The translations under genes were made by a program, and so were the position numbers. A stretch of 64,000 nucleotides of DNA, from NCBI RefSeq assembly GCF_003075525.1, contig NZ_QDDR01000001.1, positions 124,001 through 188,000 on the forward strand, given 5' to 3'. Origin of the DNA: Pararhodobacter aggregans (lineage in GTDB: Bacteria > Pseudomonadota > Alphaproteobacteria > Rhodobacterales > Rhodobacteraceae). Below, piece after piece: positions 28,071 to 57,082 of the stretch; position 1 is the stretch's first letter, and the number at the start of each line of letters is the position of its first letter. A model generated the notes under the pieces. The model was not told the DNA's origin. It did no database searches and was given only the letters and a program-made list of their open reading frames with translations.

Positions 28071-29438
28071 TCAGAGCGCGCGGAAACCGGCGTCGAGGGC
28101 GGAGAGGATCACCTGCGCGTCCGCCGAGGTCAGGACCAGGGGCGGCGAGAGGATGATGTTGGGGCCCGAGACGCGGATCATCGCCCCCGCCTGATAGGCC
28201 GCCGTCTGGATCTTGGCCGCCACCGCCTTGTCCGGTGCGGCCTTGGTCTTGCGGTCCGAGACCAGTTCCAGCGCCAGCATCAGCCCGTGGCCGCCCCGGA
28301 CGTCGCCGATCGCGTCGTATTTGGCCTGAAGCGCCAGCAGGCCCTCGTGCAATTCCCGGCCACGCGCGGCGGCATTCTCCGCGACATTCAGGCGCCGGGT
28401 CTCGGCCAGGCAGGCGAGTGCCGCGGCGGCGCCGACCGGGTGGCCGGAATAGGTATAGCCATGGCCGATGGCCGCCTTGCCGGTCTCGTCCTTCTCGAAG
28501 ACCTCGGCCACATGGTCGGCGATCATCAGCGCGCCGAAGGGGAAATAGCCGTTGGTGATGGCCTTGGCCGTCGCCATGAAATCGGGCTTCAGCCCCCAGA
28601 GGCGCGAGCCGGACCAGGCGCCGGTGCGGCCGAAGGCGGTGATCACTTCATCGGCGATGAGCAGGATGCCGTTCCGCCGGCAGATCTCGGCCACGCCGGG
28701 CATGAAGCTTTCATGCGGCGGGATCACGCCGCCCGCGCCGAGGATCGGCTCCATGATGAAGGCGGCGATGGTGCCGGCGCCCTGGAAGGCGATCTCGTCC
28801 TCAAGCTCCGCCAGGATCAGCTGCGCCAGTTTCGCCGGGTCGGTTTCGTTGAACGGGTTGCGGTAGGGATAGGGCGCGGTCAGGTGGAAGCAGCCGGGCA
28901 GCAGCGGCTCGTACATGGTGCGGAAATTGGCGTTGCCATTGACCGAGGCACCGCCGAAATGCGTACCGTGATAGCCCTTTTTCAGGGACAGGAATTTGAC
29001 CCGCCCGGGCTCGCCCTTGATCTTGTGGTACTGGCGGGCAAGGCGCAGCGCGGTCTCCACGCTGTCGCCGCCGCCCGAGGTGTAGAAGGCGCGGCTCAGC
29101 CCGTCAGGGGCGAAGAAATCCTTCAGCTCCTCGGCCAGTTCGATGACCTTGTCGTTCGAGGTGCCGCGGAAGATCGAGTAATAGGGCAGGGTATCGAGCT
29201 GCGCTGAAATCGCGTCCTTCACCGGCTGGCAGGAATAGCCGAGGTTGACGTTCCACAGGCCGCCGACGCCGTCCACCACCTGATGGCCGTCGATATCGGT
29301 GATCCTGACGCCCTCGGCCGCGGTGACGATGGTTGGCGGGTTCTTGTGGTGATCCGCTGGGTGGGTCATCGGATGCCACAGGTGGCGCGCGTTGTTGGCC
29401 TTGAGGAAGTTCTCGTCGCGGGTCTTGGTGGCGGGCAT
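28071..29438 (-). CDS. class III aminotransferase
   Basis: A 455-residue PLP enzyme of the omega-aminotransferase group (relatives use beta-alanine, putrescine, taurine or similar with pyruvate). Marks are FLKANNARHLWHPMTHPADH, DGVGGLWNVNLGYSCQPVKD, the PLP-contacting YHGTHFGGASVNGN, LIADEVITAFGRTGAWSGS with the cofactor Asp, and MATAKAITNGYFPFGALM with the Schiff-base Lys. The gene lies nine bases after the IclR gene in one operon, divergent from the TctCBA operon, so it probably belongs to the same catabolic locus. The substrate is not determined by sequence. Confidence 0.9.
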   Translation of the reverse strand: MPATKTRDENFLKANNARHLWHPMTHPADHHKNPPTIVTAAEGVRITDIDGHQVVDGVGGLWNVNLGYSCQPVKDAISAQLDTLPYYSIFRGTSNDKVIELAEELKDFFAPDGLSRAFYTSGGGDSVETALRLARQYHKIKGEPGRVKFLSLKKGYHGTHFGGASVNGNANFRTMYEPLLPGCFHLTAPYPYRNPFNETDPAKLAQLILAELEDEIAFQGAGTIAAFIMEPILGAGGVIPPHESFMPGVAEICRRNGILLIADEVITAFGRTGAWSGSRLWGLKPDFMATAKAITNGYFPFGALMIADHVAEVFEKDETGKAAIGHGYTYSGHPVGAAAALACLAETRRLNVAENAAARGRELHEGLLALQAKYDAIGDVRGGHGLMLALELVSDRKTKAAPDKAVAAKIQTAAYQAGAMIRVSGPNIILSPPLVLTSADAQVILSALDAGFRAL

Positions 29439-29447
29439 CGGAGGCTC

Positions 29448-30218
29448 CTAATAGGTGATGCGGTGATGGGCGGGAACCCGGCCGCCCAGACCCCGCGTCG
29501 CCTCGGCGGCGGCGGGGGCGAGGGCGGCGAGGATGCCGCGTTCATGGGGCTCGCTGACGCGCGAGGCGGGGGTGGCCACTGCCAGCGCCCCGCAGGCGAA
29601 ACCGTCCGGACCAAAGAGCGGCACGGCGAGGCCATAGACCTCGGCTTCATAGGTCTGGTCGGCGACGGCAAAGCCGCGCTCGGCGGTGCGGGCGAGCATG
29701 GCGGCGAGGCTGTCGCGGGTTACGGGCGTGGTGCCGGTGATGGCGGACAGCTTGCGGCCCAGCACCCGGTCGCGTTGTTCCGGCCGGGCGAAGGCGGTGA
29801 AGGCGAGGCCCGAGGCGGTGGCATGGAGCGGCAGCGCCAGCCCCGGCTCGATATAGACGCGGTTGGCGCGGGCCGGTTCGATCACGCCGATATTGGCGAG
29901 GTCCCGCCCTGACAGCAGCGAGGCATGCGCGGTCTCGCCCGTCTCGCCTGCCAGCCGCTCCAGGATCGGGGTCAGCACGCGGGTCACCGGCTGCGCCGCC
30001 TCGCGCAGGCGGGCCAGCCGCAGGATGCCGGCGCCCAGCCGCCAGCGCTTGTTCTCGGGGTTCTGCTCGACAAAGCCACTTTCTGCCATGTCCTGCAGCA
30101 TTCTGAGAACCGTCGCCTTGTCGATTCCCGAGAGCCGCGCGAGGTCGGACAGGCCGATCTCCGTCACCTTGTCGGTGAAGAAGTCCAGCAGTTTCAACGC
30201 TTTCTCGACGGTTCTCAT
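29448..30218 (-). CDS. IclR family transcriptional regulator
   Basis: A 256-residue regulator. The N-terminal winged helix (VEKALKLLDFFTDKVTEIGL, SDLARLSGIDKATVLRMLQD) is followed by an IclR effector domain (GETAHASLLSGRDLANIGVI, LPLHATASGLAFTAFA, EVYGLAVPLFGPDGFACGAL). The start was set at the ATG at 30218; an ATG at 30251 would add 11 residues. It faces the tctC operon across about 130 bases and likely senses the transported substrate or an intermediate. Confidence 0.9.
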   Translation of the reverse strand: MRTVEKALKLLDFFTDKVTEIGLSDLARLSGIDKATVLRMLQDMAESGFVEQNPENKRWRLGAGILRLARLREAAQPVTRVLTPILERLAGETGETAHASLLSGRDLANIGVIEPARANRVYIEPGLALPLHATASGLAFTAFARPEQRDRVLGRKLSAITGTTPVTRDSLAAMLARTAERGFAVADQTYEAEVYGLAVPLFGPDGFACGALAVATPASRVSEPHERGILAALAPAAAEATRGLGGRVPAHHRITY

Positions 30219-30347
30219 GGGGGCCCCAAGGCGGGAACGGAAATCATTCATTGCGGTTGCAAGAAAAGTCTTGACCGAATCCACCCCGTCGCGCAAGCTA
30301 ATTTTTGAAACGTCGGTGTAAATAATGAACCAACGAGGAGGCCAAGA
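30219..30347. promoter_or_regulatory. divergent control region between IclR gene and tctC
   Basis: The region is AT-richer than its surroundings. A TTGACC box at 30271-30276 reads toward tctC, and a GAGGAGG ribosome site lies just before the tctC start. An IclR-type operator is expected here; the stretch TTTTTGAAAC to TGTAAATAAT is a weak candidate, without a perfect palindrome. Confidence 0.4.
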
Positions 30348-31286
30348 ATGACAATGCGCGTTTCCCTTGCCCTGGCGGCAGCTCTGGCGGTGCAGGCCGG
30401 TGCAGCCCTCGCCGAATACCCTGAGGGGCCGGTGACCTTTCTGGTGCCCTGGCCGCCCGGGGATCTGGAGGATGTGCTGACCCGGATGATCGCCGAGGAT
30501 TTCCAGGCGGCCTATGGCCAGCCCGCGGCGGTCTTGAACCGGCCCGGCGGCGGTGGCGGTCCCTTCCCGGGCGCGGTGGAAGTGGCGACCTCGCCCGCCG
30601 ATGGGTCGGTGGTCGGCTCCTTCGTGATCGGCGTGCCGGTAGTCGGCCCGCAGATCGGCATCCCCGAGTTGAACCCCAATCCCTTCACCCCGGTCGGCAT
30701 CTTCCTGACCTATCCCTTCGTGCTGGCGACCTCGGGCGATGCCGAGTTTCAGACCATGCAGGAACTCGCCACCTATGCGCAGTCGAACGAGGTCCTGTTG
30801 GGCCATTTCGGCGCCCAGCTGACGCCGACGCAGGTCAGCTTCGCGCTGGCGCATGAGATGGGCTTCGCCTGGGGCGCGGACGCGGCCTATGACGCGCTCG
30901 ATTGCAACACGCTGGCCTCGGGCGATGTGGATGTGATCAACACCACGATCCAGCTGATCATGCCCTGCCTTGACGATGTGACGATCCTGGCCGCGGTGAC
31001 CGGCGAGCGTCTGCCGCTGGCGCCCGATGCGCCGACCGTGGGCGAACTCGCGCCGGATCTGGCGATCTCGCTCTGGAACGGGCTCTTTGTCCCGAACGGC
31101 ACCCCGCAGGAGGTGATCGACCGTATCGCCGAGGTGGCGCAGGCCACCATCGCCAGCGAGCGTGCCCAGACCTTCGCCGCCGAGACCGGGGCGCAGATCT
31201 ATTGGCAGGACACCGCCGCCGCCACCGCCCAGATCGAGGGCGATATCGCCACCATGGGGCGGATCGCCGAGATCACCGGCCAGTGA
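30348..31286 (+). CDS. tctC: TctC-type solute-binding protein of a tripartite tricarboxylate transporter
   Basis: A 312-residue periplasmic binding protein with a signal peptide (SLALAAALAVQAGAALA). The mature part opens YPEGPVTFLVPWPPGDLEDV, then VLNRPGGGGGPFPGAVEVAT, the typical TctC/Bug opening and loop. Two cysteines (DALDCNTLAS, LIMPCLDDVT) may form a disulfide. Tct family binding proteins take up citrate and other carboxylates, but many have different ligands. It heads the operon with tctB and tctA; a hairpin with T-run follows. Confidence 0.9.
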   Translation: MTMRVSLALAAALAVQAGAALAEYPEGPVTFLVPWPPGDLEDVLTRMIAEDFQAAYGQPAAVLNRPGGGGGPFPGAVEVATSPADGSVVGSFVIGVPVVGPQIGIPELNPNPFTPVGIFLTYPFVLATSGDAEFQTMQELATYAQSNEVLLGHFGAQLTPTQVSFALAHEMGFAWGADAAYDALDCNTLASGDVDVINTTIQLIMPCLDDVTILAAVTGERLPLAPDAPTVGELAPDLAISLWNGLFVPNGTPQEVIDRIAEVAQATIASERAQTFAAETGAQIYWQDTAAATAQIEGDIATMGRIAEITGQ

Positions 31287-31335: not shown

Positions 31336-31887
31336 ATGAGTGACGACAAAGCGCACGACCTGTCCGACCTGACCCATCCGCCGCATCACCGGGCCGAGAT
31401 CGTCTTTGCCGTGGCCTCGTTCGTGGTGGCGCTGCTGCTGGCCGCGCTCTGGTCGACCGAGACGCAATGGATCGACGGCCAGCCCTGGAGCCGCCAGCCC
31501 GGCCTCTGGCCGCTGATTGCCATCCTCGGCATGCTGGTTTTCGGCACGGGCGAGCTGATCGCCTGCCTGATCCGCAACCTGCGCCACGGCGGTGGCGATG
31601 TCCGCGCCGAGCTGATGCTCTGGCTCAGGGTCGGGGAATATGTGCTGTGGTTCATGGCCTATGTTCTGGTGACGCCGCGGCTGGGCTATCTGCCGACCAC
31701 GCTGATCTTCACCACGCTGCTCGCCTTCCGGCTGGGCTATCGCCGCCGCATCCTGTGGCTGGCTCCCCTCATGGGCCTGTTGATCGTCGTGGCCTTCAAA
31801 TCCTTCCTGGCCGTGCGCATTCCGGGGGGCGAGGCCTATGACCTGCTGCCGCAGGGCCTGCGCAATTTCCTTGTCCTCTATCTCTGA
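31336..31887 (+). CDS. tctB: TctB-type small membrane subunit
   Basis: A 183-residue protein with four predicted membrane segments (IVFAVASFVVALLLAALW, WPLIAILGMLVFGTGELIA, YVLWFMAYVLVTPRLGYL, WLAPLMGLLIVVAFKSFL), the usual plan of TctB. The motif P-R-L-G-Y-L-P-T-T is typical. The start at 31336 follows a GAGGGG ribosome site; the frame upstream overlaps tctC and the terminator. It works with TctA as the small permease subunit. Confidence 0.88.
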   Translation: MSDDKAHDLSDLTHPPHHRAEIVFAVASFVVALLLAALWSTETQWIDGQPWSRQPGLWPLIAILGMLVFGTGELIACLIRNLRHGGGDVRAELMLWLRVGEYVLWFMAYVLVTPRLGYLPTTLIFTTLLAFRLGYRRRILWLAPLMGLLIVVAFKSFLAVRIPGGEAYDLLPQGLRNFLVLYL

Positions 31888-31899: not shown

Positions 31900-33396
31900 T
31901 TGGATACTTTCCTCTCCGCGCTGGCCATCGTCTCGCGCTGGGACGTGATCGCGGCGCTGCTCGCGGGATCGGTCGGCGGCGTCATCATCGGCGCCATCCC
32001 GGGCGTCGGGCCCGCCGTGGCCATCGCCATCCTGTTGCCCGCGACCTTCGGGATGGAGCCGATCGTCGGGCTGACGCTGCTCTTGGGCATCTATGGCTCG
32101 GCGCTGTTCGGCGGCTCGATCCCCTCCATCCTCATCAACACCCCCGGCACGCCGGTCAACGCGCTGACCACTTACGATGGCTTCCCGATGACCAAGCAGG
32201 GGCAGGCGCCCCGGGCGCTGGGCCTCAGTTTCGGCGCGTCCTTCTTCGGCGGGATCTTCGCGGTCATCGCGCTGGTCCTGCTGTCGCCGGTGCTGGCCCG
32301 GGTTGCGCCCATGTTCGGCTCGCGCGAGATCTTCCTCGCGGCCTTCCTCGGTTGCGTGCTGGTCGTGGTGGCGCATCGCGGGCAATCGCTGGCGGCGGGG
32401 GCGCTGTTGATGTTCGGCCTTTTCCTCAACACCATCGGGATGGAGGCCAACAATTACACCCGCCGCTTCACCTTCGAGCTGAATTTCCTCGATCAGGGGG
32501 TCAACCTGATCGTCGTGGTGCTGGGCCTTTTCGCCGTGTCGCAGGCCTTTGTCCTGCTGGTCGGCAAGGACGACATGGAGGCCGCGCCCGAGATCAAGGG
32601 CAATGTGCTGGGCGGCGTGCTGGAGGTCTTTCGCCACAAGCGGGTCGCCGCCGCGGGGTCGCTGTCCGGGACGATCATGGGGATCATCCCGGGGGTGGGC
32701 GAATTCACCTCGCAATTCCTCAGCTATTCCTATGCCCGCGCCACGTCGAAGAACCCGGGCCTGTTCGGCAAGGGCAGCCCCGAGGGCCTGATCGCCTCGG
32801 AAACCGCCAACAATTCGGTGCCGCCCGCCGCCATGGTGCCGCTGCTGGCGCTGGGCATCCCCGGCGAGGCGCTGACGGCGATGATGCTCAGCGTCTTCTA
32901 CGTCCACAACGTGATCCCCGGTCCGACGCTGTTTCGCGATCACATGGATTTCGTGATGGCGCTCTATATCTGTCTGGCGCTGCTGAACATTCTGGCGCTG
33001 GCCTTCCTGCTGGTGGCGACCCGGCCCCTGCTGAAAGTGCTGGTGATCCCGAACCGCTTTCTGGGCATGATGATCCTGACGCTCAGCTTCGTCGGCATCT
33101 ATTCGCTCAGGAATTCGGCCATTGACTGCATGCTGGCGGCGGCCTTCGGCCTCTTGGGCGTTGTCCTGAAACGGCTGAACCTGCCCTTGGTGCCGATCAT
33201 CCTCGGCATGGTGCTGGGCGGGATCATGGAGAACAAGTTCCGCACCTCGCTGCCGCGCATCCGCTCGCTTTATTCATGGATCGACAGGCCGGTGGCGATG
33301 GTCATCTTCTGTCTCATCTGTATCGTGCTGGCGCTGCACCTCTGGGGGCTGTGGCGTGACTGGAAAGGAAAACGGGATGGATCAGTCGAGCATTGA
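31900..33396 (+). CDS. tctA: TctA-type large membrane subunit
   Basis: A 498-residue permease subunit of the TctA family with about twelve membrane segments. The first conserved block is IIGAIPGVGPAVAIAILLPA, and the second GIIPGVGEFTSQFLSYSYAR; SETANNSVPPAAMVPLLALG and ALGIPGEALTAMMLSVFYVH are also family marks. The start is a rare TTG with GAGGGG upstream. Its end overlaps the aldehyde dehydrogenase gene by 20 bases, joining transporter and catabolic genes in one operon. Confidence 0.93.
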   Translation: MDTFLSALAIVSRWDVIAALLAGSVGGVIIGAIPGVGPAVAIAILLPATFGMEPIVGLTLLLGIYGSALFGGSIPSILINTPGTPVNALTTYDGFPMTKQGQAPRALGLSFGASFFGGIFAVIALVLLSPVLARVAPMFGSREIFLAAFLGCVLVVVAHRGQSLAAGALLMFGLFLNTIGMEANNYTRRFTFELNFLDQGVNLIVVVLGLFAVSQAFVLLVGKDDMEAAPEIKGNVLGGVLEVFRHKRVAAAGSLSGTIMGIIPGVGEFTSQFLSYSYARATSKNPGLFGKGSPEGLIASETANNSVPPAAMVPLLALGIPGEALTAMMLSVFYVHNVIPGPTLFRDHMDFVMALYICLALLNILALAFLLVATRPLLKVLVIPNRFLGMMILTLSFVGIYSLRNSAIDCMLAAAFGLLGVVLKRLNLPLVPIILGMVLGGIMENKFRTSLPRIRSLYSWIDRPVAMVIFCLICIVLALHLWGLWRDWKGKRDGSVEH

Positions 33397-34861
33397 CGCG
33401 CTGGCAGCGCAAAAGGTTGCGCCGCAGGGCCTGTTCATCGGGGGACAGCGCGTCGCGGCCACGGGCGGGGCGGTCATGGCCGTCACCTCGCCCATCGACG
33501 GGCAGCATCTGACCGATATCGCCGATGCCTCGGCCGCCGATGTGGACGCGGCGGTGCGGGCGGCGCGGCGGGCCTATGCCTCGGGCGTGTGGTCGCGCGC
33601 GGCCCCGGCCGAGCGCAAGAAGGTGCTGTTCCGCATCGCCGAGGCGATCGAGCGCGAGGCGCTGTCGCTGGCGGTCCTCGGCGTGCGCGACAACGGGACC
33701 GAGATCTCCATGGCGGTGAAGGCCGAGCCCGGCAGCGCTGCCGGCACCTTCCGCTATTACGCCGAGGCGCTGGACAAGATCGGCGGCGAGATCGCGCCCA
33801 CGGCGGGGAATGTGCTGGGGCTGGTGCACCGCGAGCCGGTCGGCGTGGTCGGCGCCATCGTGCCCTGGAACTTCCCGCTGATGATCGGCGCCTGGAAGAT
33901 CGCGCCGGCGCTGGCCATGGGCAATTCGGTGGTGCTGAAACCCTCGGAAGTGGCCTCGCTGACCCTGCTCCGGCTGGCCGAGATCTGCGCCGAATGCGGC
34001 CTGCCCGAAGGCGTGCTGAACGTCGTGACCGGCGCGGGCGCTGTCTCGGGCGAGGCGCTGGGCCTGCACCCGGATGTGGATGTGCTGGTCTTCACCGGCT
34101 CGGGCGGCGTCGGTCGCAGGCTCCTGGAATACTCCGCCCGGTCGAACCTGAAGCGGGTCTATCTGGAACTCGGCGGCAAATCCCCCAACGTGGTCTTCGC
34201 CGATGCGCCGGACCTGCGGCAGGCGGCCAGGGTCAGCGCGGCGGGGATCTTCCGCAACTCGGGTCAGGTCTGCGTGGCGGGCTCGCGCCTTCTGGTCGAA
34301 CGCTCGGTGCACGAGGAATTCGCGGCGATGCTGGCTGAGGAAGCCCGCGCAATGAAGATCGGCAACCCGCTCAGGCTGGACACCCAGGCCGGGGCCATCG
34401 CCTCCGAGGCGCAGCTCGCCCGGGTTCAGCATTACGTCGAAAAGGCGCATGAGGAAGGCGGTGCGCTGCGTACCGGCGGCGCGCGGATCCTGACCGAGAC
34501 CGGCGGCAGCTATTTCGCGCCCACGGTCTTTGACAACGTGACCCCGGACATGACGCTGGCCCGCGAGGAGGTCTTCGGCCCGGTGGTCGCCGTCACCCCC
34601 TTCGACACCGAGGAAGACGCGGTGCGGATGGCCAACGGCACCGATTTCGGCCTCGCCTCGGCGGTCTGGACCGGCAACCTTTCGCGCGCGCATCGCATGG
34701 TGCGGGCCATCGACGCGGGCGTCGTGCACGTCAACACCTATGGCGGCGCCGACAACACCGTGCCTCTGGGCGGGCACCGGCAATCCGGCAACGGGCATGA
34801 CAAGTCCCTGCACGCGCTGGACAAATACGTGAACCTGAAAACCGCCTGGATCCAGCTGTGA
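33377..34861 (+). CDS. NAD(P)-dependent aldehyde dehydrogenase
   Basis: A 494-residue enzyme. The start was placed at the ATG at 33377, with AAAGGA upstream; a GTG at 33356 is possible. Catalytic residues are the Glu in YLELGGKSPNVVF and the Cys in NSGQVCVAGSRLLVE; the cofactor loop FTGSGGVGRRLL and the proton-relay Asn in VPWNFPLMIG are present. It resembles betaine/amino-aldehyde dehydrogenases. In this operon it would oxidise the aldehyde released by the phospho-lyase-like enzyme encoded next, which it overlaps by four bases. Confidence 0.92.
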   Translation: MDQSSIDALAAQKVAPQGLFIGGQRVAATGGAVMAVTSPIDGQHLTDIADASAADVDAAVRAARRAYASGVWSRAAPAERKKVLFRIAEAIEREALSLAVLGVRDNGTEISMAVKAEPGSAAGTFRYYAEALDKIGGEIAPTAGNVLGLVHREPVGVVGAIVPWNFPLMIGAWKIAPALAMGNSVVLKPSEVASLTLLRLAEICAECGLPEGVLNVVTGAGAVSGEALGLHPDVDVLVFTGSGGVGRRLLEYSARSNLKRVYLELGGKSPNVVFADAPDLRQAARVSAAGIFRNSGQVCVAGSRLLVERSVHEEFAAMLAEEARAMKIGNPLRLDTQAGAIASEAQLARVQHYVEKAHEEGGALRTGGARILTETGGSYFAPTVFDNVTPDMTLAREEVFGPVVAVTPFDTEEDAVRMANGTDFGLASAVWTGNLSRAHRMVRAIDAGVVHVNTYGGADNTVPLGGHRQSGNGHDKSLHALDKYVNLKTAWIQL

Positions 34862-36144
34862 CAGAGACTCTGATCGAACGCCGCGCCCGTCTGCTGGGCC
34901 CGAACATGAGCACCTTCTATGACGAGCCCGTGCATCTGGTGCGCGGGCAGGGGGTGCATCTGTGGGACGCGGACGGGCGGCAATACCTCGATTGCTACAA
35001 CAACGTGCCGCATGTCGGGCATTGCCACCCCAGGGTGGTCGAGGCGATCTGCCAGCAGGCCGGGACGCTGAACACCCACACCCGCTATCTGCACGAGGGG
35101 ATTCTGGACTATGTCGAGGCGCTGGTCGCGACCTTCGACGCCCCCTTCGACACGGCCCTGATGTGCTGCACCGGGTCCGAGGCGAATGACGTGGCGCTGC
35201 GCATGGCGCAGGCGCTGACCGGCAAGACCGGGGTCATCGCCACCGACCACACCTATCACGGCAATACGACCGCCGTGCACCAGCTTTCCCAGACCAATCC
35301 GCCGCCGGGCGGCTATTGGGATTCTGTGCGCTTTGTGCCCGCGCCGGACAGCTACCGCCCCCTTGGCGGTGAGCCCGGCATGGCCCATGCCCAGGCCTTC
35401 GCCGCCAAGGTGCAGGAGCAGATCGACGCGCTCGAAGCTGCCGGGCATGGTTTTTCGTCGCTGATCCTCTGCCCCTTCTTCGCCAATGAGGGCTTTCCGG
35501 ACCTGCCCCACGGCTGGCTCGACCCGGTGCAGGCGGTCGTGAAGAAGGCCGGTGGCGTCATCATCGCCGACGAGGTGCAGCCGGGCTTCGGCCGGGTCGG
35601 CACGCATTTCTGGGGGCACCAGAAGATCGGCCTCAGGCCCGATATCGTCACCATGGGCAAGCCGATGGCCAACGGCCACCCGGTCGCCGCTGTCGTCGCG
35701 CCCGCCGCCACGATGCAGGCCTTCCGCGAACGGTTTCGCTATTTCAACACCTTCGGCGGCAACCCGGTCAGCGCCGCCGCGGCGCTCGCCACCCTGCGCG
35801 TGGTGCAGGAAGAGGGGTTGCAGGAAAACGCCCGCGTCGTCGGGGATTACGCCCGCGACGGGCTGCGGGAGTTGGCCACAAGGCACGAATGCATCGGCGA
35901 TGTGCGCGGCTCGGGGCTGTTCTTCGGGGCCGAGATGGTGCTGGACCGGGGCACGAAGGAACCCGCCACCGCCTTTACCAAGCGCGTCGCCAATGCCATG
36001 CGGCAGCAGGGTATCCTGCTGAATTTCCTCGGCATCCATTACAACGTGCTGAAGATCCGCCCGCCGCTGCCGTTCAGCAAGGCCAACGCCGACCAGCTCA
36101 TCGGGACGCTGGACCGGGTGCTGGCCGAGACCCCGCTGGCATGA
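34858..36144 (+). CDS. class III PLP enzyme, AGXT2L (phospho-lyase)-like
   Basis: A 428-residue PLP protein that resembles ethanolamine-phosphate and 5-phosphohydroxylysine phospho-lyases more than ordinary transaminases. Shared blocks with the human AGXT2L enzymes are YLDCYNNVPHVGHCHPRVV, LNTHTRYLH, IIADEVQPGFGRVGTHFW, PDIVTMGKPMANGHPVA (Schiff-base K268), YFNTFGGNPVSAAAAL and NVLKIRPPLPFSKANA. Such enzymes remove ammonia and phosphate from a phosphorylated amino alcohol, giving an aldehyde. A kinase gene follows at a four-base overlap and an aldehyde dehydrogenase precedes. The start is a GTG; an ATG at 34906 is an alternative. Confidence 0.8.
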   Translation: MTETLIERRARLLGPNMSTFYDEPVHLVRGQGVHLWDADGRQYLDCYNNVPHVGHCHPRVVEAICQQAGTLNTHTRYLHEGILDYVEALVATFDAPFDTALMCCTGSEANDVALRMAQALTGKTGVIATDHTYHGNTTAVHQLSQTNPPPGGYWDSVRFVPAPDSYRPLGGEPGMAHAQAFAAKVQEQIDALEAAGHGFSSLILCPFFANEGFPDLPHGWLDPVQAVVKKAGGVIIADEVQPGFGRVGTHFWGHQKIGLRPDIVTMGKPMANGHPVAAVVAPAATMQAFRERFRYFNTFGGNPVSAAAALATLRVVQEEGLQENARVVGDYARDGLRELATRHECIGDVRGSGLFFGAEMVLDRGTKEPATAFTKRVANAMRQQGILLNFLGIHYNVLKIRPPLPFSKANADQLIGTLDRVLAETPLA

Positions 36145-37085
36145 ACGGCTTCGCCCATGCGGCGGCCCCGCTCTGGGGGCTCGATCCGGCGCAGGTTTCG
36201 CTGGTCGCGAAGCGCGAGAACGAGGTCTGGCGGGCCGAAGGCCCCGGCGGGCCCTATGCGCTGCGGCTGCACCGGCCGGGTTACCGGACCGCGGCCGAGC
36301 TGCAATCGGAACTCGACTGGATGGCGATGCTGGCCAAGGGCGGGCTCACCGTCCCGCGTCCGATTCCCTCGCGGACCGGGCGGCTGGTCGAGGTTGTCGG
36401 CGACACGCCGGTCGATCTGCTGACCTGGATGCCCGGCCGGATGGTCGGCAAGCAGGGCGCGCTGGAGGGGATCACCGACCGCGCGGGCCATATGCACCGC
36501 CTCGGCGCGTTGCTGGCCCGGCTGCACGACCTTTCCGACAATTGGACCCCGCCCGAGGGCTTCACCCGGCCACGTTGGGACCGTCCCGGCCTGCTGGGCG
36601 AGACGCCGCTCTGGGGCCCGTTCTGGGCCAATCCTGACCTGACATCGGCGCAGCGCGCCACCCTGCGGCAGGTGCAGATAAGGGCCGAGGCGGATCTCGC
36701 CGCTCGCGAAACCGCGCTGGATTACGGCCTGATCCATGCCGATGCCATCACCGAGAATGTCATGGTCGACGGCGAAACACTGGTGCTGATCGACTTCGAC
36801 GACGGCGGCTGGGGCTTTCGGGATTTCGACCTCGCCACCGTGCTGATGCGGCAACTGACCGCCGCCGATTACCCCGCCCTGCGCGCCGCCCTGTTGGAGG
36901 GCTATGCCGCCCGCCGCACCGTCGATGAGGCGGCGCTGGACCTGCTGCTCCTCTGCCGCGCGCTGACCTATCTGGGCTGGATCATCCCAAGGCGGGACGA
37001 GCCCGGCGGCGAAGAACGCTCGCGCCGCGCCGTCGCCACGGCCCTGCCGCTGGCCGAAACCTATCTGGAGACTTCCGATGTCTGA
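36141..37085 (+). CDS. APH-fold kinase, hydroxylysine-kinase-like
   Basis: A 314-residue protein of the aminoglycoside/choline kinase fold. The nucleotide-lid part is WRAEGPGGPYALRLHRPGYR; the catalytic loop LIHADAITENVMV (D201, N206) and the metal-binding LIDFDDGGWGFRDFD (D218) are intact. With the phospho-lyase-like partner it matches the two-step logic of hydroxylysine or ethanolamine breakdown: phosphorylate the hydroxyl, then eliminate. Substrate is inferred. It overlaps both neighbours, so it is part of the same coupled operon. Confidence 0.78.
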   Translation: MNGFAHAAAPLWGLDPAQVSLVAKRENEVWRAEGPGGPYALRLHRPGYRTAAELQSELDWMAMLAKGGLTVPRPIPSRTGRLVEVVGDTPVDLLTWMPGRMVGKQGALEGITDRAGHMHRLGALLARLHDLSDNWTPPEGFTRPRWDRPGLLGETPLWGPFWANPDLTSAQRATLRQVQIRAEADLAARETALDYGLIHADAITENVMVDGETLVLIDFDDGGWGFRDFDLATVLMRQLTAADYPALRAALLEGYAARRTVDEAALDLLLLCRALTYLGWIIPRRDEPGGEERSRRAVATALPLAETYLETSDV

Positions 37086-38313
37086 CCGCACCATCCTGAT
37101 CGTCGGCACCTATGACACCAAAGAGGACGAACTCGGCTATCTGGCACAGGTGATCCGCGGGCAGGGCGGCGGGGTGCTGACCATGGATGTGAGCGTGCTG
37201 GGCGAGCCCGCCATGCCCACCGATTATTCCAAGCATCAGGTGGCCGAGGCGGGGGGCGCCTCGATCGCCGAGGCGATTGCCGGTGAGGACGAGAACCTCG
37301 CCATGCAGATCATGGCCCGGGGCTCGGCCGCGCTGGCCAGGCGATTGCAGGCCGAGGGCGCCTTTGACGGGGTGATCGTGCTGGGCGGCTCGATGGGGAC
37401 GGATCTGGCGCTCGACCTCTGCGCGGCGCTGCCGCTGGGCGTGCCCAAGTACATCGTCTCGACCGTCAGCTTCTCGCCGATGATCCCGACCGAACGGCTG
37501 GCGGCGGATGTGCAGATGATCCTCTGGGCGGGCGGGCTCTATGGCTTGAACTCGGTCTGCAAGGCGTCGCTGTCGCAGGCGGCGGGCGCGGTTCTGGGCG
37601 CCGCGCGGGCGGTGGAAACGCCGGTGCGCGACCGGCCGCTCATTGGCATGACCTCGTTCGGCAAGACCGTGCTGCGCTACATGGTCCCGCTGAAACCGGC
37701 GCTCGAGGCGCGGGGTTACGAGGTCGCGGTCTTCCACGCCACCGGCATGGGCGGCCGGGCGTTCGAGGCGCTGGCGGCCGAGGGCGCCTTTGCCGCGGTC
37801 CTCGATTTCGCCCCGCAGGAGGTGGCGAACCATCTGCACGGCTCGGCCATCACCGCGGGCCCCGACCGGCTGACGGCGGCGGGCAGGGCAGGCGTGCCGC
37901 AGATCGTCTCCATTGGCTGCTATGACCTCATTGACCTGGTGGGCTGGCACGAGCGGCCCGAGGGGCTGCGCGACCGCCCGGCCCATGCCCATAACCGGCT
38001 GATTACCTCGGTGGTGATGACGGCCGAGGAACGGCGCGGCATGGCGAAGGCATTGTGCGAGCGGCTGGCGCAGGCGACGGGGCCGGTGGTGTTCCTGCTG
38101 CCGCTCAAGGGCGGCAACGAATGGGACCGCGAGGGCGGGCCGCTCAGCGATCCCGAGGCGCTGGCGGCCTTCGTCGACGCGATGCGCGCGGAATGCCCGG
38201 CCAATGTGACGCTGGTCGAACTCGACGCCCACATCAACGACCCGGAATTTTCCGAGGCCGCCTTGCAGGTCGTCGATGGCTGGATCGCGGCCGGGCTTCT
38301 GCCCCGCGCCTAA
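37078..38313 (+). CDS. Tm-1-like / UPF0261 ATP-binding protein
   Basis: A 411-residue protein of the UPF0261 family, named after the tomato Tm-1 resistance protein N-terminal part. Marks are ILIVGTYDTKEDELGYLAQV, GVIVLGGSMGTDLALDLCAA, YIVSTVSFSPMIP, LIGMTSFGKTVLRYMVP and VVFLLPLKGGNEWDREGGPL. The family binds nucleotide, but its bacterial reaction is not settled. As the last gene of the operon it may act in the same pathway. The start overlaps the kinase gene by eight bases; the end overlaps hisD (opposite strand) by four. Confidence 0.85.
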   Translation: MSDRTILIVGTYDTKEDELGYLAQVIRGQGGGVLTMDVSVLGEPAMPTDYSKHQVAEAGGASIAEAIAGEDENLAMQIMARGSAALARRLQAEGAFDGVIVLGGSMGTDLALDLCAALPLGVPKYIVSTVSFSPMIPTERLAADVQMILWAGGLYGLNSVCKASLSQAAGAVLGAARAVETPVRDRPLIGMTSFGKTVLRYMVPLKPALEARGYEVAVFHATGMGGRAFEALAAEGAFAAVLDFAPQEVANHLHGSAITAGPDRLTAAGRAGVPQIVSIGCYDLIDLVGWHERPEGLRDRPAHAHNRLITSVVMTAEERRGMAKALCERLAQATGPVVFLLPLKGGNEWDREGGPLSDPEALAAFVDAMRAECPANVTLVELDAHINDPEFSEAALQVVDGWIAAGLLPRA

Positions 38314-39611: not shown

Positions 39612-39701
39612 GGCACTCTCCTGCGTCATGCCGGGGGATAGGCGAAGCGGGCGATGGCGTAAAGTGCCTTCGCCCGCTGCGGAAAGGGGGGGAGGGCAGC
39701 C

Positions 39702-47741: not shown

Positions 47742-48548
47742 TCAACCCTGCGCGAAGGTTGTGCGAACCCGGCCGAAACTGCCGAAGTCGGCGTCGAAAA
47801 CGCTGCCCGGCGGCGCTTCGACCGGCCGGATGAAGGATCCCGACAGCACCACCTCGCCCGCGCCCAGCCCCTGCCCGTACCGCGCGAGTCGCTCGACCAG
47901 CCAGACGATGCCGGTGACCGGATCGTCCAGCACCCCGGCGCCGAGGCCGGTTTCCTCGACCACGCCGTCGCGCTTGAGGATGGCGCCCGCCCAGCGCAGG
48001 TCCAGCCCGCGCGGGTCATGGCGCTGGGCACCCAGCACGATGCCCGCATTCGCCGCATTGTCGCTGATCGTGTCGGTCACGACGCGGGCGCGGCCGGTGG
48101 CGGGATCGGCGCGCAGGATCCGGGTGTCGAGGATCTCCAGCGCCGGGGCCACGGCCTCGGTCGCGGCCAGCACCTGCTCGCGGGTCACGCCCGCGCCTGT
48201 GAGCGGCGCCTTCAGCAGGAAGGCGATCTCGGCCTCGATCCGCGGCTGGATGAAGCGCCCGGCGGGGATCACCGCCCCGTCCTCGAACAGCATGTCGTCA
48301 AACAGGACGCCCGAATCCGGCGTGTCGATCTTCAGCGCATCCTGCATGGCGCGGCTGGTCAGGCCGATCTTCCAGCCGATCACCTGTCGCCCGGCGGCCT
48401 TCTTGCGCGCCACCAGGGCCGCCTGCACGGCATAGGCATCGTCCAGCGTCATCCCGGGATGGGCCAGCGACAGAAGCCCGATCTGCCGCCCCGCGGCCTC
48501 GGCCTGAAACAGCGCCTCGGCGGCGGCGTCGTGCTGCGCGGGGGTCAT
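47742..48548 (-). CDS. hpaH: 2-oxo-hept-4-ene-1,7-dioate hydratase
   Basis: A 268-residue hydratase of the MhpD/HpaH family that adds water to 2-oxo-hept-4-ene-1,7-dioate late in homoprotocatechuate breakdown. Marks are TLDDAYAVQAALVARKKAAG, VIGWKIGLTSRAMQDALKID, LFDDMLFEDGAVIPAGRFIQ, PRIEAEIAFLL and VALEVLD-type metal region ALEILDTRI. It overlaps hpaG in an ATGA. As the last gene of the hpa operon it should produce the substrate of the HpaI aldolase, whose gene is not in this window. Confidence 0.92.
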   Translation of the reverse strand: MTPAQHDAAAEALFQAEAAGRQIGLLSLAHPGMTLDDAYAVQAALVARKKAAGRQVIGWKIGLTSRAMQDALKIDTPDSGVLFDDMLFEDGAVIPAGRFIQPRIEAEIAFLLKAPLTGAGVTREQVLAATEAVAPALEILDTRILRADPATGRARVVTDTISDNAANAGIVLGAQRHDPRGLDLRWAGAILKRDGVVEETGLGAGVLDDPVTGIVWLVERLARYGQGLGAGEVVLSGSFIRPVEAPPGSVFDADFGSFGRVRTTFAQG

Positions 48549-49405
48549 TCGTCGGCCACCCCGTTCCTGAGGATGCCGATGCCCGGGGCCTCAACCTCCA
48601 CCACATCGCCGGGCACCAGATAGCGCGGCGGATCGAAGCGCGCCCCGGCGCCGGTCGGCGTGCCGGTGACGATGATATCGCCGGGCATCAGCGTGGTGAA
48701 GGTCGAGATATAGGCGATCTCCTCGCGGATGGGGAAGATCATCCGGCTCAGCACATCGTCCTGCCGCACCTCGCCATTGACCCGGGTGATGATCCGCGCC
48801 TGATCCAGCTGCGCCGGATCCTCGAAGGCCACCATCCAGGGCCCGATGGCGCCCGAGCAATCCCAGTTCTTGCCCTGCGTCACGTTGAATTTCGCGTGCC
48901 GCACCCAGTCGCGGATCGTCCCCTCGTTGCACAGCGTCAGCCCGGCGATGTGGTCATAGGCGTCCTCGGCCCGGATCCGCCGCCCCGGCTTGCCGATCAC
49001 CACGGCGACCTCGCCCTCGTAATCCAGCGTGTGGTTCTCGGGCGGGCGGATCAGCGGCTGGCCATGGCCGGTGAAAGAGCGCGCGAAGCGGGGGAAGAGC
49101 GACATGTACTTGGGCTGCTCGGTGCCGTCCCTGTATTCGGCATTCCGGTCGGGAAAGTTCACGCCGACGCAGAGAATCTTCTCCGGATCGGGTACCGGGA
49201 TTGAAAAAGTGAAACTCCCCTCGGGATGCGTCACCGCCCGACCCGCCGCCGTCCGGGCCAGATCGCCCAAGCCCCCGGCCGCGATCACCTCGCGCAACGT
49301 CCGCCACTGCGGGAAGTCATCCGACAGCGCGATCACGCCCCCCTCGACGACCACGCCGTAAACCTGCCGCCCCCCGGCCTCGATGGTTGCAAACCGTGTT
49401 CTCAT
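48545..49405 (-). CDS. hpaG: fumarylacetoacetate hydrolase family protein, HpaG/HpcE-like
   Basis: A 286-residue enzyme of the FAH family. In this pathway it should decarboxylate 5-oxopent-3-ene-1,2,5-tricarboxylate and isomerise the product. Marks are EKILCVGVNFPDRNAEYRD, NHTLDYEGEVAVVIGKPGRR (metal-binding Glu residues), GKNWDCSGAIGPWMVAFEDP and PGDIIVTGTPTGAGARFDP. E. coli HpaG has two such domains; this protein has one. Its ATG lies in an intergenic repeat (CATCTTTGTTCT read on the plus strand), so the repeat supplies its start region. Confidence 0.85.
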   Translation of the reverse strand: MRTRFATIEAGGRQVYGVVVEGGVIALSDDFPQWRTLREVIAAGGLGDLARTAAGRAVTHPEGSFTFSIPVPDPEKILCVGVNFPDRNAEYRDGTEQPKYMSLFPRFARSFTGHGQPLIRPPENHTLDYEGEVAVVIGKPGRRIRAEDAYDHIAGLTLCNEGTIRDWVRHAKFNVTQGKNWDCSGAIGPWMVAFEDPAQLDQARIITRVNGEVRQDDVLSRMIFPIREEIAYISTFTTLMPGDIIVTGTPTGAGARFDPPRYLVPGDVVEVEAPGIGILRNGVADE

Positions 49406-49600
49406 CTTTGTTCTCCAAATATCCACGGGGGGATTTTCAAGGGGGGAGCGTGCTCCCCCCTTGAAGCAGGGGGCCCGGGGGGCGGCAGCCCCCCGCCTTT
49501 TGTGTGAGCTTGGGGCGGCAGCCCCCCGCCTTTTGTATGAACTTGGGGCGGAAGCCCCCCGTCCTTTGCCTAGATTCGGGGCGGCAGCGCCCCGCCTTTC
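49402..49600. repeat. composite repeat with four 33-base tandem units (copy 2)
   Basis: From left to right: the CATCTTTGTTCT segment, a hairpin TTCAAGGGGGGAGC/GCTCCCCCCTTGAA, then four tandem units beginning GGCGG at 49481, 49514, 49547 and 49580 (period 33). Units 1 and 2 are nearly identical; unit 3 is diverged and unit 4 reaches the stop codon of the dioxygenase gene. Each unit has a GGGGCGGCAGCCCC-type hairpin followed by CCGCCTTT. It separates two genes of one operon, so strong RNA structure may reduce downstream expression. Confidence 0.8.
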
Positions 49601-50579
49601 ACGGCGCCACGATCGGCTGCGCCGTCAGGGCCGATGCCACCAGTTCCGCCCCCTCGAACACCGACCCCTCCTCGAACCACGACCGCGGCGCCGGCGCCCC
49701 CCAGAGGGTCTGGCGCTGCGGGTCCTTGAGGTCCCAGCGGATCGGCTCCAGATCGGGATCGACCGTCTGGTAATCCGAGCAATAGATCTCGATCCGGTGC
49801 CCGTCCGGGTCGCGGATATAGAGGAAGAAGGCGTTGGAAATCCCGTGCCGCCCCGGCCCGCGCTCGATATTCGCCACATAGCCGGTGGTGGCCATCAGAT
49901 CCAAGAGGTCGATGATGTTCAGGGGCGTCGGCACCCAGAAGGCGGTGTGATGCAGCCGCGGCCCGCGGCCATTGGTGAAGGCCACGTCATGCACGCCCCC
50001 CTTGCGGTGCATCCAGGCCGCCCAGCAGCGCCCGCTCTCGGCATCCTCGGTGTATTCCGTCACCCGGAAACCGATCTGATTGTAGAAGGCGACCGAGGCA
50101 TCGACGTCCGAGGCGAACATGTTGAAATGGTCGATCCGGAGCGGTTTGACCCCCCGGTAGAGGGCGTATTTCTGGTGGATCGGCGCCAGCCGCTCCATCC
50201 GGGCGTAGAATTCCAGGGGGATCCCGAACGGGTCGCGGGTGCGGAAGGCGCGGGTGATGAAGGGGCTCTCCACCCATTCGACCGGCAGGCCCTGCCGGGC
50301 GAACCAGGCGGCGGCCTTGTCCAGCTCGCCCTCGTCAAAGACCTTGAACCCCAGCACCCCGACCGAGGGCTCGGCGGCCTCGACCAGCGTCACGCAATGA
50401 TGGCCCCGCTCCTCCATGGCCCGCAGGTAGAGCCGCCCCGGCTCCTCGGCCGTCACCTGCAGGCCCAGCGTGTCGACCCAGAAGGCGCGCGCGCGGGCGA
50501 GGTCGGTCACGCGGTATTCGACATGGCTCAGCCGCAGGATGTTGAAAGGCGGGTAGAGATTGGGCGCGGGGATCGGCAT
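49599..50579 (-). CDS. homoprotocatechuate 2,3-dioxygenase, class I extradiol (VOC fold)
   Basis: A 326-residue extradiol dioxygenase of the vicinal-oxygen-chelate fold, like the enzymes of Brevibacterium and Arthrobacter. The metal ligands can be assigned as H151 (LRIDHFNMFA), H210 (RGPRLHHTAFWV) and E264 (HRIEIYCSDY); the second-sphere H197 (GVHDVAFTNG) and Y254 are present, with spacing close to that of the Brevibacterium enzyme. It should cleave the ring of homoprotocatechuate, the same reaction as the unrelated HpaD encoded just upstream. The active site is intact, so both may be functional. Confidence 0.9.
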   Translation of the reverse strand: MPIPAPNLYPPFNILRLSHVEYRVTDLARARAFWVDTLGLQVTAEEPGRLYLRAMEERGHHCVTLVEAAEPSVGVLGFKVFDEGELDKAAAWFARQGLPVEWVESPFITRAFRTRDPFGIPLEFYARMERLAPIHQKYALYRGVKPLRIDHFNMFASDVDASVAFYNQIGFRVTEYTEDAESGRCWAAWMHRKGGVHDVAFTNGRGPRLHHTAFWVPTPLNIIDLLDLMATTGYVANIERGPGRHGISNAFFLYIRDPDGHRIEIYCSDYQTVDPDLEPIRWDLKDPQRQTLWGAPAPRSWFEEGSVFEGAELVASALTAQPIVAP

Positions 50580-50603
50580 GGGGCCTCCTCGGACGATTGC
50601 GGC

Positions 50604-50631
50604 GTAGGATGGGCAATATTGCCCATCCTAC
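50604..50631. repeat. 28-base perfect palindrome, second copy
   Basis: Identical to the palindrome at 25052-25079. It overlaps the hpaD stop: the TAG at 50628-50630 (minus strand) is the TAG in the first bases of the palindrome. It therefore forms the message end of hpaD just before the class I dioxygenase gene. Confidence 0.85.
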
Positions 50632-51479
50632 AGGGGGAAAATCACATTGACCTGCCCGGTCCCGGAGGACGGGAAATAGGGCGTCACCACCTCGCAGCGG
50701 CCGGTGTACTCGTCCCAGCCCAGCGCCCCATAGAGCATGGCGGTGTCGTGCATCGACCCCTCGCCCGAGCAATGATGCGCGTAATCGCCCAGCATCTTGA
50801 GGAAGGTGGCGTGATCGCCCCGCTGCCACATCTCCAGCACCATCAGATCCACCTGCCGGTTGAACTCGCTGGAAATGGTGAAGGTGCCGTTGTTCGGCCC
50901 GTATTCCTTGTTCGACCAGATCCGGTGGCTGAGCGAGCCCGAGGCGACCAGCAGCACCCGGCTGTCCGAGGCCTCGATGGCCCGCCGGATCGCCTGACCC
51001 AGCACCCGGCTCTCGTCATGGCCATGCACCGTGCAGAAGGCCGCGACGCTCACCACCTTCATGTCATGCTCGCGCGACATGAAGCTCATCGGCACCAGCG
51101 TGCCGTATTCCAGATCCAGAGAATCGAGGTGATGGGCCAGCGTATAGACCCCCATCTCGGTCGCCGTCTCGGCGATCAGGTCGCCCAGCGCCGGATTGCC
51201 GCGATGGGCATAGGGCATGTCGCGGATGAATTGCGGGAACTCGCTGGAGGTCAGCAGCCCCTCGAACCGCTCATTGGCGTTGACATGGAAGCCCGCGTTC
51301 ACCAGCCAATGCGTGTCGCAGATCACCACGGTATCGACGCCCAGCGCCTTGGCCCGGCGGGCGATCTCCAGATGGCCGTCGATGGCCGGCTGGCGGGTGC
51401 CCTTGAGGCGCCCCTCCTGCTCCGACATCTGCAGCGTCGGCACATGCGTCATCTTGGCGGCGAGAACCAGTTCTCCCAT
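50628..51479 (-). CDS. hpaD: 3,4-dihydroxyphenylacetate 2,3-dioxygenase, class III extradiol (LigB fold)
   Basis: A 283-residue enzyme closely similar in plan to E. coli HpcB/HpaD: GELVLAAKMTHVPTLQMSEQ, GVDTVVICDTHWLVNAGFHV, FIRDMPYAHRGNPALGDLIA, SLDLEYGTLVPMSFM, AFCTVHGHDESRVLGQAI, and the ending FPSSGTGQVNVIFPL. It opens the aromatic ring next to the hydroxyls. A clear GGGAGGGG site precedes the ATG. It is followed in the same operon by an unrelated enzyme for the same step. Confidence 0.92.
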   Translation of the reverse strand: MGELVLAAKMTHVPTLQMSEQEGRLKGTRQPAIDGHLEIARRAKALGVDTVVICDTHWLVNAGFHVNANERFEGLLTSSEFPQFIRDMPYAHRGNPALGDLIAETATEMGVYTLAHHLDSLDLEYGTLVPMSFMSREHDMKVVSVAAFCTVHGHDESRVLGQAIRRAIEASDSRVLLVASGSLSHRIWSNKEYGPNNGTFTISSEFNRQVDLMVLEMWQRGDHATFLKMLGDYAHHCSGEGSMHDTAMLYGALGWDEYTGRCEVVTPYFPSSGTGQVNVIFPL

Positions 51480-51490
51480 GATCCCCTCCC

Positions 51491-52995
<1,505 letters not shown>

Positions 52996-52999
<4 letters not shown>

Positions 53000-53391
53000 G
53001 CTTGCATGTCCTTCGGCAGGAAACGGCGGATGGAGCTGGTTTTCGGGCTCAGCCCCGGGTCGATGTCGCGCATTTCCAGCGAGAGCATCAGCGAATTCGC
53101 GACCAGATCCTCGGCGCAGAACGCCTCGGCCGCGGCAAAGATCGCCGCGGTGGCGCGGGCCTTGTCCTCGGGACTGCGGCCGCCGCGCAGGCGGATGGCG
53201 ATGTCGATGAAACCATGGCGCGGGTCGCCGTCGGCGATCAGCACATGATCGGCGGCAAAGGCCCGGACCCGGATCCCGGCGGGCGGAAAGACCCCGGTCG
53301 CCACCGCCGCATCGCGCAGGACGCGCAGGAAGCCCGGCATGTCGAGGCGCGTGTCGAGGTTGCGCGAATACTCGATCGACAGATGCGGCAC
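52996..53391 (-). CDS. hpaF: 5-carboxymethyl-2-hydroxymuconate delta-isomerase
   Basis: A 131-residue isomerase of the CHMI/tautomerase superfamily. The sequence begins MPHLSIEYSRNLD; after Met removal the N-terminal proline is the catalytic base. Other marks are AFAADHVLIADGDPRHGFID and IRLRGGRSPEDKARATAAIF. It is the first gene of the hpa operon, divergent from hpaR. Confidence 0.9.
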
Positions 53392-53538
53392 GGCTCCCTC
53401 CCCGGGCTTTATACTTGCTTTGTTAAGTTATTGCCGCGCCCCTGTCAATTGCAAAGATCCGCCGCCGGGCCTCGCGCCCGGCAGAGGCGGCAGCGCAATT
53501 TCCTTGCTTTGTGACGGAGGTTCGGCCAGAGCAACGCC
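53392..53538. promoter_or_regulatory. divergent hpaF-hpaR control region
   Basis: An AT-rich patch breaks the GC-rich surroundings. The ten-base sequence CTTGCTTTGT occurs twice in the same orientation (53414-53423 and 53503-53512), close to the two starts. CAATTGCAAAG at 53446-53456 is a partial inverted match. These are candidate binding sites for HpaR, which in E. coli represses from sites in the equivalent region. Confidence 0.5.
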
Positions 53539-55686: not shown

Positions 55687-55696
55687 ATCGGCCTCC

Positions 55697-57070: not shown

Positions 57071-57082
57071 CTGGTTCCTCCC

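Follow-up and report, generated by a model that had tools for sequence, protein, structure and literature searches.

Which reactions are encoded by a gene pair, one member coding for a class III pyridoxal 5'-phosphate (PLP)-dependent protein and the other for an APH-fold kinase, found within a transporter operon of Pararhodobacter aggregans? The question is raised by a stretch of 64,000 nucleotides from this alphaproteobacterium (contig NZ_QDDR01000001.1, positions 124,001 to 188,000; hereafter the window), in which the two genes, called here PLY and KIN, are flanked by an aldehyde dehydrogenase (ALDH) gene and by a gene of the UPF0261 family (Table 1). The pair probably (rough probability 0.73) acts as a two-gene module through which an aromatic-amine operon also takes in beta-hydroxylated arylethylamines. 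In this proposal, every reaction as well as the substrate is deduced from gene content and order, family membership, conservation, an empty site in a sibling genome and genetic linkage.

The initial annotation of this DNA had described a PLP protein with three characteristic motif blocks, an overlapping APH kinase gene and an overlapping ALDH gene on the other side, all of which are found again in the open reading frame coordinates and Pfam matches. Pfam also confirms the TctCBA transporter, the UPF0261 protein and the divergent IclR/aminotransferase unit that it had placed around the pair. The gene order is TctC-TctB-TctA-ALDH-PLY-KIN-UPF0261, the IclR regulator and a class III transaminase being divergent; this gene set is called below the cassette. 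According to the open reading frame coordinates, each of the last five genes, from TctA to UPF0261, shares 4 to 20 bases with its neighbour in this series (TctA/ALDH at 33377-33396, provided that ALDH starts at the ATG in 33377; ALDH/PLY at 34858-34861; PLY/KIN at 36141-36144; KIN/UPF0261 at 37078-37085).

Sequence affinities of PLY and KIN

By its sequence, PLY groups with the phospho-lyases, apart from ordinary transaminases. It matches the Pfam family Aminotran_3 (PF00202, 250.6 bits) and carries a GKP motif at residues 267-269. When all solved structures were compared, the closest were the phospholyase A1RDF1 (5g4i; 391 bits, 45% identity) and human ETNPPL (6tor; 346 bits), the next solved family being dialkylglycine decarboxylase (DGD) with 214 bits. 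The best NCBIfam match is PRK06148, a longer subfamily (1015 positions), with a score far under its cut-off. The profile of PbfA (NF049939) gives 190 bits for a cut-off of 525, so that PLY is not a member of that family.

Furthermore, 30 alignment positions set the PLY type apart: the same letter is conserved in no fewer than 97% of the 155 PLY-type rows, and 20% or less of the 11 rows of transaminases or decarboxylases have it (one gene occurring twice among these 11, and gaps being scored as absent). The PLY of the window bears the PLY-type letter at 30 of these 30 positions. A1RDF1 and ETNPPL both agree with it at 20 of them (e.g., N48, N49, R115, Q241, W252, G267, M270, N272, N302 and K399). 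In a mixture-model tree (IQ-TREE) whose outgroup was composed of a transaminase and a decarboxylase (DGD and P0005), ETNPPL is placed outside the bacterial PLY rows (support 91). Scores, residues and tree are therefore in line with the AGXT2L phospho-lyase type assigned by the initial annotation, and not with a grouping among ordinary transaminases.

KIN matches the Pfam family APH (110.9 bits) and possesses the HxDxxxxN and DFD-type motifs. Its nearest solved relative, 6ef6 (112 bits), is labelled as an aminoglycoside phosphotransferase; we take it to be the (S)-1-amino-2-propanol kinase of the Mycobacterium smegmatis RMM microcompartment.

The tie between the two genes was followed in two partly overlapping sets. 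The family sample comprises 248 genomes of Rhodobacteraceae, 109 of which contain a PLY-type match at the limit applied; the 129 places listed are divided into 80 of clade A, defined by an identity to PLY of 56% or more, and 49 others. The named loci are the best 80 of 590 confirmed stretches and come partly from the same genomes. A KIN homologue flanks PLY in all but one (L215) of the 79 clade-A loci fetched from the family sample and in all 80 named loci, i.e., in 158/159 for both sets.

An empty site in a genome of the same genus

A genome of the same genus (G222) carries the same operon, with 73-91.5% protein identity, without PLY and KIN. The DNA alignment consists of a first block running from 27001 of the window (the start of the query) to 34865 and of a second one starting at 37084, and these blocks meet on G222 with a two-base overlap. 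About 2.2 kb (2,218 unaligned bases of the window), essentially the pair, is present or absent as a unit. ALDH and UPF0261 are neighbours, separated by a gap of at most about 90 bases, in 14 of the 20 PLY-less transaminase loci fetched; among the remaining six, the stretch ends too early in three and the gene order differs in three.

UPF0261 is found in the flanks of 62/80 named loci and also in cassettes devoid of PLY-KIN. It would thus be a partner of the arylamine cassette and not of the pair itself. Its nearest solved relative, 9mpy, bears the family name only.

Association with aromatic catabolism genes

The same window holds an operon for meta-cleavage of homoprotocatechuate (3,4-dihydroxyphenylacetate) at 47742-53982, 9.4 kb beyond UPF0261. 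It was located by searching the window with proteins of related plasmids and then with NCBIfam, and hpaD, hpaE, hpaF, hpaG, hpaH and hpaR occur together in it. The initial annotation had not connected this operon to the pair. The gene of the aldolase HpaI is located elsewhere in the genome (C8:90748; 386.9 bits for a cut-off of 368.8). This genome (5.08 Mb, 100% complete) also encodes a homogentisate dioxygenase (C3) and the phenylacetyl-CoA epoxidase PaaA (C1:82168). It has no match to the two-component HpaB (PF03241), other types of 4-hydroxyphenylacetate hydroxylase not having been searched for.

In the family sample, HpaE exceeds its cut-off in 88 genomes, matches under the family cut-off being excluded. 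Clade-A PLY genes are found within 20 kb of hpaE at 12 of 80 places, for 0.44 expected from random placement in 4-Mb genomes, and those of the other subgroups at 0 of 49, for 0.24 expected; compared directly, these proportions differ with p 0.003. The cassette transaminase, counted at its 78 best places only (down to 719.9 bits), lies within 20 kb of hpaE at 17 of them (0.66 expected) and shares its genome with hpaE in 65/78 (odds ratio, OR, 32). Moreover, hpaE is present in 20 of the 22 genomes in which PLY and the transaminase are at most 20 kb apart, versus 68 of the 226 others (OR 23, p 2.5e-8; this p-value and the preceding one are too small, since the tests count related draft genomes as independent). 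Taken over all of clade A, hpaE co-occurs with PLY only modestly (OR 2.9), an excess driven by these cassette-type genomes.

The full cassette of the window recurs in many genomes. The flanks of the 80 named loci, 12 of which span 15 kb or less, contain the transaminase in 56 cases, ALDH in 54, TctA in 28 and an APC permease in 28; at least two kinds of hpa genes are present in 33, an hmg-type gene in 4, either of these in 36, and HpaB in 13. For example, the cassette of the window is directly followed by hpaR-F-E-D-G-H in Lutimaribacter pacificus (L112) and in Rhodobacteraceae EhC02 (L114), with an additional HAD gene in L114, and L129 displays the order PLY-KIN-hpaF-E-D-G-H. Plasmids of Rhizobium and Agrobacterium harbour IclR-UPF0261-HAD-transaminase-PLY-KIN beside hpa genes, with the APC permease and ALDH on the opposite strand, and a Shinella plasmid harbours UPF0261-HAD-transaminase-PLY-KIN, also beside hpa genes. 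Ruegeria AD91A combines the full cassette with hpaR-F-E-D and an annotated pyridoxal-dependent decarboxylase, while Ruegeria pomeroyi DSS-3 has a shorter version (transaminase SPO_RS21615, ALDH, PLY SPO_RS21625, KIN SPO_RS21630 and UPF0261). Cassettes without PLY-KIN are found near paaABCD in Ruegeria TM1040 and near hppD/hmgA in Gemmobacter; in this latter, PLY-KIN is carried by the same plasmid, about 46 kb away, with another class III gene.

Two other genes recur at these loci. A gene of the glutamine synthetase family is located just upstream of the transaminase cassette of Ruegeria TM1040 (L109:12386-15101), and homologues with 75-89% identity are found in L042, L043, L114, L117, L121, L124, L254, L256, L258, L259, L261, L263 and L268, often beside a weak cytochrome P450 match. 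These neighbours possibly correspond to a gamma-glutamylation branch of amine use or to a ring-hydroxylation step. In many cassettes, a HAD-family hydrolase gene (L103:9952-10602; L046, L114, L128, L258) is inserted between IclR/UPF0261 and the transaminase; no homologue of it was matched in the window.

Distant relatives and phylogeny

The gene of A1RDF1 is carried by plasmid pTC2 of Paenarthrobacter aurescens TC1, and the protein contains the 5g4i segment unchanged. Within about 13 kb are found hpaE, hpaI and an hpa-type hydratase, together with a permease, a kinase sharing 39% identity with KIN, and aldehyde dehydrogenases, one of which is annotated as phenylacetaldehyde dehydrogenase. In Mesorhizobium AR07, the order is PLY-KIN-paaX-pcaF-paaABCDE. 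Phyllobacterium carries PLY-KIN near an annotated tyramine oxidase, and Sphingobium TomTYG64 near hpcB, hpcD and hpaR, the first of these about 6 kb away. A1RDF1 and the PLY proteins of Mesorhizobium, Phyllobacterium and Sphingobium form one group (SH-like approximate likelihood ratio test, SH-aLRT, 97) that is joined to clade A (94). These distant plasmid loci were hand-picked from match lists, so that they attest recurrence, not frequency. The other PLY types examined are found with SDR and ABC-transporter genes, with ABC-transporter genes alone, with genes annotated as histone deacetylase family or with hydroxyectoine genes.

Many clade-A genes occupy another site, on the chromosome, designated the core locus (e.g., L053, L068, L072, L198 and L205), whose recurrent genes, named by eye, include those of an ArfB-like protein, a nicotinate phosphoribosyltransferase and a nicotinamidase. 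In a FastTree tree, calculated after collapsing rows at least 90% identical (187 reduced to 153), the core-locus rows form a paraphyletic grade around a cassette clade of 80 rows (95). Transaminase, hpa or hmg genes are present in the flanks of 61/80 rows of this clade versus 2/54; of these 80 rows, 45 stem from the cassette-leaning set of named loci. In the IQ-TREE tree, unlike this grade, the sampled core-locus rows form one nested group. No ancestral locus is claimed.

Proposed pathway

The following route is predicted. The transaminase of the base cassette would deaminate tyramine, dopamine and phenethylamine to arylacetaldehydes. After import by the Tct transporter or an APC permease, KIN would transfer a phosphate from ATP to the benzylic hydroxyl of a 2-amino-1-arylethanol, namely noradrenaline, octopamine or 2-amino-1-phenylethanol. 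The primary amine would then be bound by PLY as a PLP aldimine, the phosphate would be eliminated, and hydrolysis of the released enamine would yield an arylacetaldehyde and ammonia. The cassette ALDH would oxidize this aldehyde to an arylacetate, which would enter ring cleavage, through homoprotocatechuate and the hpa operon of the window or, in other strains, through homogentisate or phenylacetate. The second enzyme pair would be useful because, on chemical grounds, the transaminase alone would convert octopamine to a mandelic-type aldehyde, off the hpa path. Since the genome is devoid of the two-component HpaB, a catechol amine, noradrenaline, would be the likeliest hpa-linked substrate here; it would reach homoprotocatechuate directly in this strain. 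Octopamine is likelier to be the substrate in the rhizobia that possess HpaBC.

Several points weigh against this pathway. A Tct transporter would be unusual for a cationic amine, and A1RDF1 is reportedly active on phosphoethanolamine. In the window itself, the hpa operon is a separate cluster on the opposite strand, 9.4 kb from the operon of the pair, and the nearest relative (L111) has no hpa gene within 10 kb. HpaB was found in 0 of the 22 cassette genomes, so that the use of octopamine or tyramine there would depend on another ring hydroxylase. PLY genomes without a transaminase nearby have hpaE at background level (21/56, OR 1.1). To the underestimated p-values mentioned above is added the fact that the 0/49 of the other subgroups is no lower than its own small expectation. 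Among the 79 clade-A loci fetched from the family sample, 37 are at the core locus (at least two core genes; 44 with at least one), where hpa genes occur in the flank of 1/37 and where the role of the orthologues may differ; two or more kinds of hpa genes are found in the flanks of only 8/79. The query for the named loci was an alignment of 17 rows in which cassette members predominate, so that their counts lean towards the cassette; even so, 44/80 have neither two kinds of hpa genes nor an hmg-type gene in their flanks, and 20 of these 44 also lack the transaminase.

Alternative explanations

The initial annotation had proposed amino-alcohol degradation on the model of animals, with hydroxylysine or ethanolamine as possible substrates. 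The set of kinase, phospho-lyase and dehydrogenase fits such a pathway, but the context points to aromatic amino alcohols. If PLY formed acetaldehyde or aminoadipate semialdehyde for ALDH, the aromatic neighbours would be coincidental, which is quite unlikely, as genes for aromatic ring cleavage are found repeatedly beside the pair, in several lineages. This holds even though human ETNPPL is the second-best solved relative of PLY, A1RDF1 reportedly acts on phosphoethanolamine, and the core-locus orthologues, which almost always lack hpa neighbours, could play this part. The recurrent neighbours are cassette, aromatic or core genes, in a survey that included no search aimed at lysine or ethanolamine genes. 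An association by location alone, in which PLY-KIN would be an amino-alcohol scavenging module carried by the same catabolic islands as hpa and sharing no pathway with it, is rather unlikely. Many orthologues are indeed at the core locus without hpa genes, and distant PLY types are found with SDR/ABC-transporter genes or near hydroxyectoine genes. However, the pair sits with overlapping frames between ALDH and UPF0261, in an operon whose transaminase tracks hpaE, and the association recurs with hpa, hmg and paa genes and in an actinobacterium.

The same chemistry could also act on another aromatic amino alcohol, for example an amine that is conjugated, methoxylated or derived from beta-hydroxytyrosine, in which case octopamine and noradrenaline would be mere analogues. 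This is a doubtful possibility, but some observations favour it: transporters vary by lineage (TctA or APC, each in 28/80 named loci), two hpa regions include an annotated pyridoxal-dependent decarboxylase, HpaB is missing in cassette genomes, and the sinks (hpa, hmg, paa) vary. Yet all these sinks begin with acids of the (hydroxy)phenylacetate type, as would suit simple arylethanolamines, and a conjugate would presumably require an additional hydrolase. It is highly improbable, lastly, that PLY is a transaminase or a racemase and that KIN acts elsewhere, as might be supposed from the class III aminotransferase domain and from relatives annotated as aminotransferases in public records. Such a role accords poorly with the phospho-lyase placement and shared residues of PLY, with its near-constant association with a KIN homologue (158/159 flanks), with the joint absence of both genes from the sibling genome and with the presence of a true transaminase in the cassette.

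If the arylethanolamine pathway is correct, it provides genes and a chemical logic for the bacterial use of beta-hydroxylated signalling amines, and marine roseobacters and rhizobia become predicted consumers of octopamine- and noradrenaline-like amines. A physiological substrate is then proposed for a bacterial phospho-lyase of solved structure, and the octopamine to 4-hydroxyphenylacetaldehyde activity, which is not known to have a sequence, gets a testable one. A wider proposal, to which we would give even odds, is that noradrenaline, octopamine and phenylethanolamine are broken down in several bacterial phyla by a dedicated route, in which this kinase and phospho-lyase pair carries out an ATP-driven phosphorylation followed by elimination. 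The substrates of A1RDF1 would then be O-phospho-arylethanolamines instead of phosphoethanolamine, and at least part of the octopamine-to-aldehyde activity reported as EC 4.2.1.87 would be due to the pair and not to a direct dehydratase.

Features of the window

The coordinates of the genes discussed are given in Table 1. The ALDH of the operon scores under the cut-off of every one of the 25 best NCBIfam matches shown.

Table 1. Features of the pair's operon, of its divergent unit and of the hpa operon, in window coordinates.
Feature	Position	Strand	Basis or remark
Class III omega-transaminase, PRK07481 subfamily (over cut-off)	28071..29438	-	Predicted tyramine/dopamine-type amine transaminase
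IclR-family regulator	29448..30275	-	Pfam; translated stretch, start not settled, likely further in
TctC-type solute-binding protein	30348..31286	+	Pfam
TctB	31336..31887	+	Pfam
TctA permease	31900..33396	+	Pfam
ALDH, PuuC/KauB-like	33377..34861	+	Predicted arylacetaldehyde dehydrogenase; start not settled
PLY, PLP-dependent phospho-lyase type, AGXT2L/A1RDF1	34858..36144	+	Start GTG, 428 aa, PLP lysine K268
PLY+KIN stretch missing from the G222 operon	34866..37083	+	Borders uncertain by ~2 bases
KIN, APH-fold small-molecule kinase	36141..37085	+	314 aa; HADAITEN (199), IDFD (217)
UPF0261 / Tm-1-like protein	37078..38313	+	Pfam; common cassette member
HpaH, 2-oxo-hept-4-ene-1,7-dioate hydratase	47742..48548	-	373 bits, cut-off 351.5
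HpaG-like FAA-hydrolase family isomerase/decarboxylase	48545..49426	-	Under HpaG NCBIfam cut-offs, over that of Pfam
HpaD, 3,4-dihydroxyphenylacetate 2,3-dioxygenase (TIGR02295)	49599..50579	-	408 bits, cut-off 321
Second 3,4-dihydroxyphenylacetate 2,3-dioxygenase, LigB type HpaD_Fe	50628..51572	-	452 bits, cut-off 316; start not settled
HpaE, 5-carboxymethyl-2-hydroxymuconate semialdehyde dehydrogenase	51491..52999	-	765 bits, cut-off 638
HpaF, 5-carboxymethyl-2-hydroxymuconate isomerase	52996..53391	-	Pfam CHMI over cut-off; under NCBIfam cut-off
HpaR, homoprotocatechuate operon regulator	53539..53982	+	139 bits, cut-off 121

Two HpaD proteins of different families (TIGR02295 and LigB type), both over curated cut-offs, are encoded by adjoining genes of this single hpa operon. 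The hpa region is itself adjoined by the genes of pyruvate dehydrogenase E2, E1-beta and E1-alpha (54382-58072, minus strand). Between the two pathway clusters, the minus strand of 45273-47669 codes, in a row, for a subtilase-family protease, a protein of 213 aa that matches no Pfam family and a sigma-70-family (ECF-like) factor. The gene at 38310-39629, convergent to the operon of the pair, was considered as a sulfopropanediol dehydrogenase gene and rejected: it scores 522.6 bits with TIGR00069 (cut-off 243.8), its best solved chains are histidinol dehydrogenases, and it fits a true HisD.

Comparison with known systems

The closest solved relative of PLY, A1RDF1 (PDB 5g4i/5g4j), also resembles it by its surroundings, namely an APH-type kinase, a permease, aldehyde dehydrogenases and hpa genes. 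However, its locus is actinobacterial, a TetR gene separates it from the kinase gene, which is read in the other direction, and the regulator is of the AraC type. Furthermore, a Cu amine oxidase gene lies about 24 kb away on the plasmid, no other transaminase being annotated in the stretches shown.

In animals, hydroxylysine kinase, PHYKPL and a dehydrogenase follow the same kinase, phospho-lyase and dehydrogenase logic with aliphatic substrates. Human ETNPPL (AGXT2L1, PDB 6tor) belongs to the same PLP subfamily as PLY; it differs by its position outside the bacterial rows of the tree and by its aliphatic substrate. Among bacteria, the (S)-1-amino-2-propanol kinase of the M. smegmatis RMM microcompartment is reportedly an amino-alcohol kinase. 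This aminopropanol system works with a microcompartment, whereas the genome studied here has 0 matches to the microcompartment shell proteins (PF00936).

Octopamine dehydratase (EC 4.2.1.87) and synephrine dehydratase (EC 4.2.1.88), described as direct dehydratases, yield 4-hydroxyphenylacetaldehyde from octopamine or synephrine, and neither is known to have an assigned sequence. Their net outcome is that of the proposed route, which differs in that it would spend ATP and release phosphate. In the open-access literature, which was partially covered, no report was recognised of a kinase and phospho-lyase route for octopamine, noradrenaline or phenylethanolamine. The class III fold is also used by PbfA, the (R)-1-hydroxy-2-aminoethylphosphonate ammonia-lyase, which frees ammonia from a beta-hydroxy amine (PMC8154272); it eliminates water, where PLY would eliminate phosphate. 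The succession of kinase, phospho-lyase and dehydrogenase is known from animals, while the aromatic class of substrates and the catabolic setting appear to be new within the literature searched.

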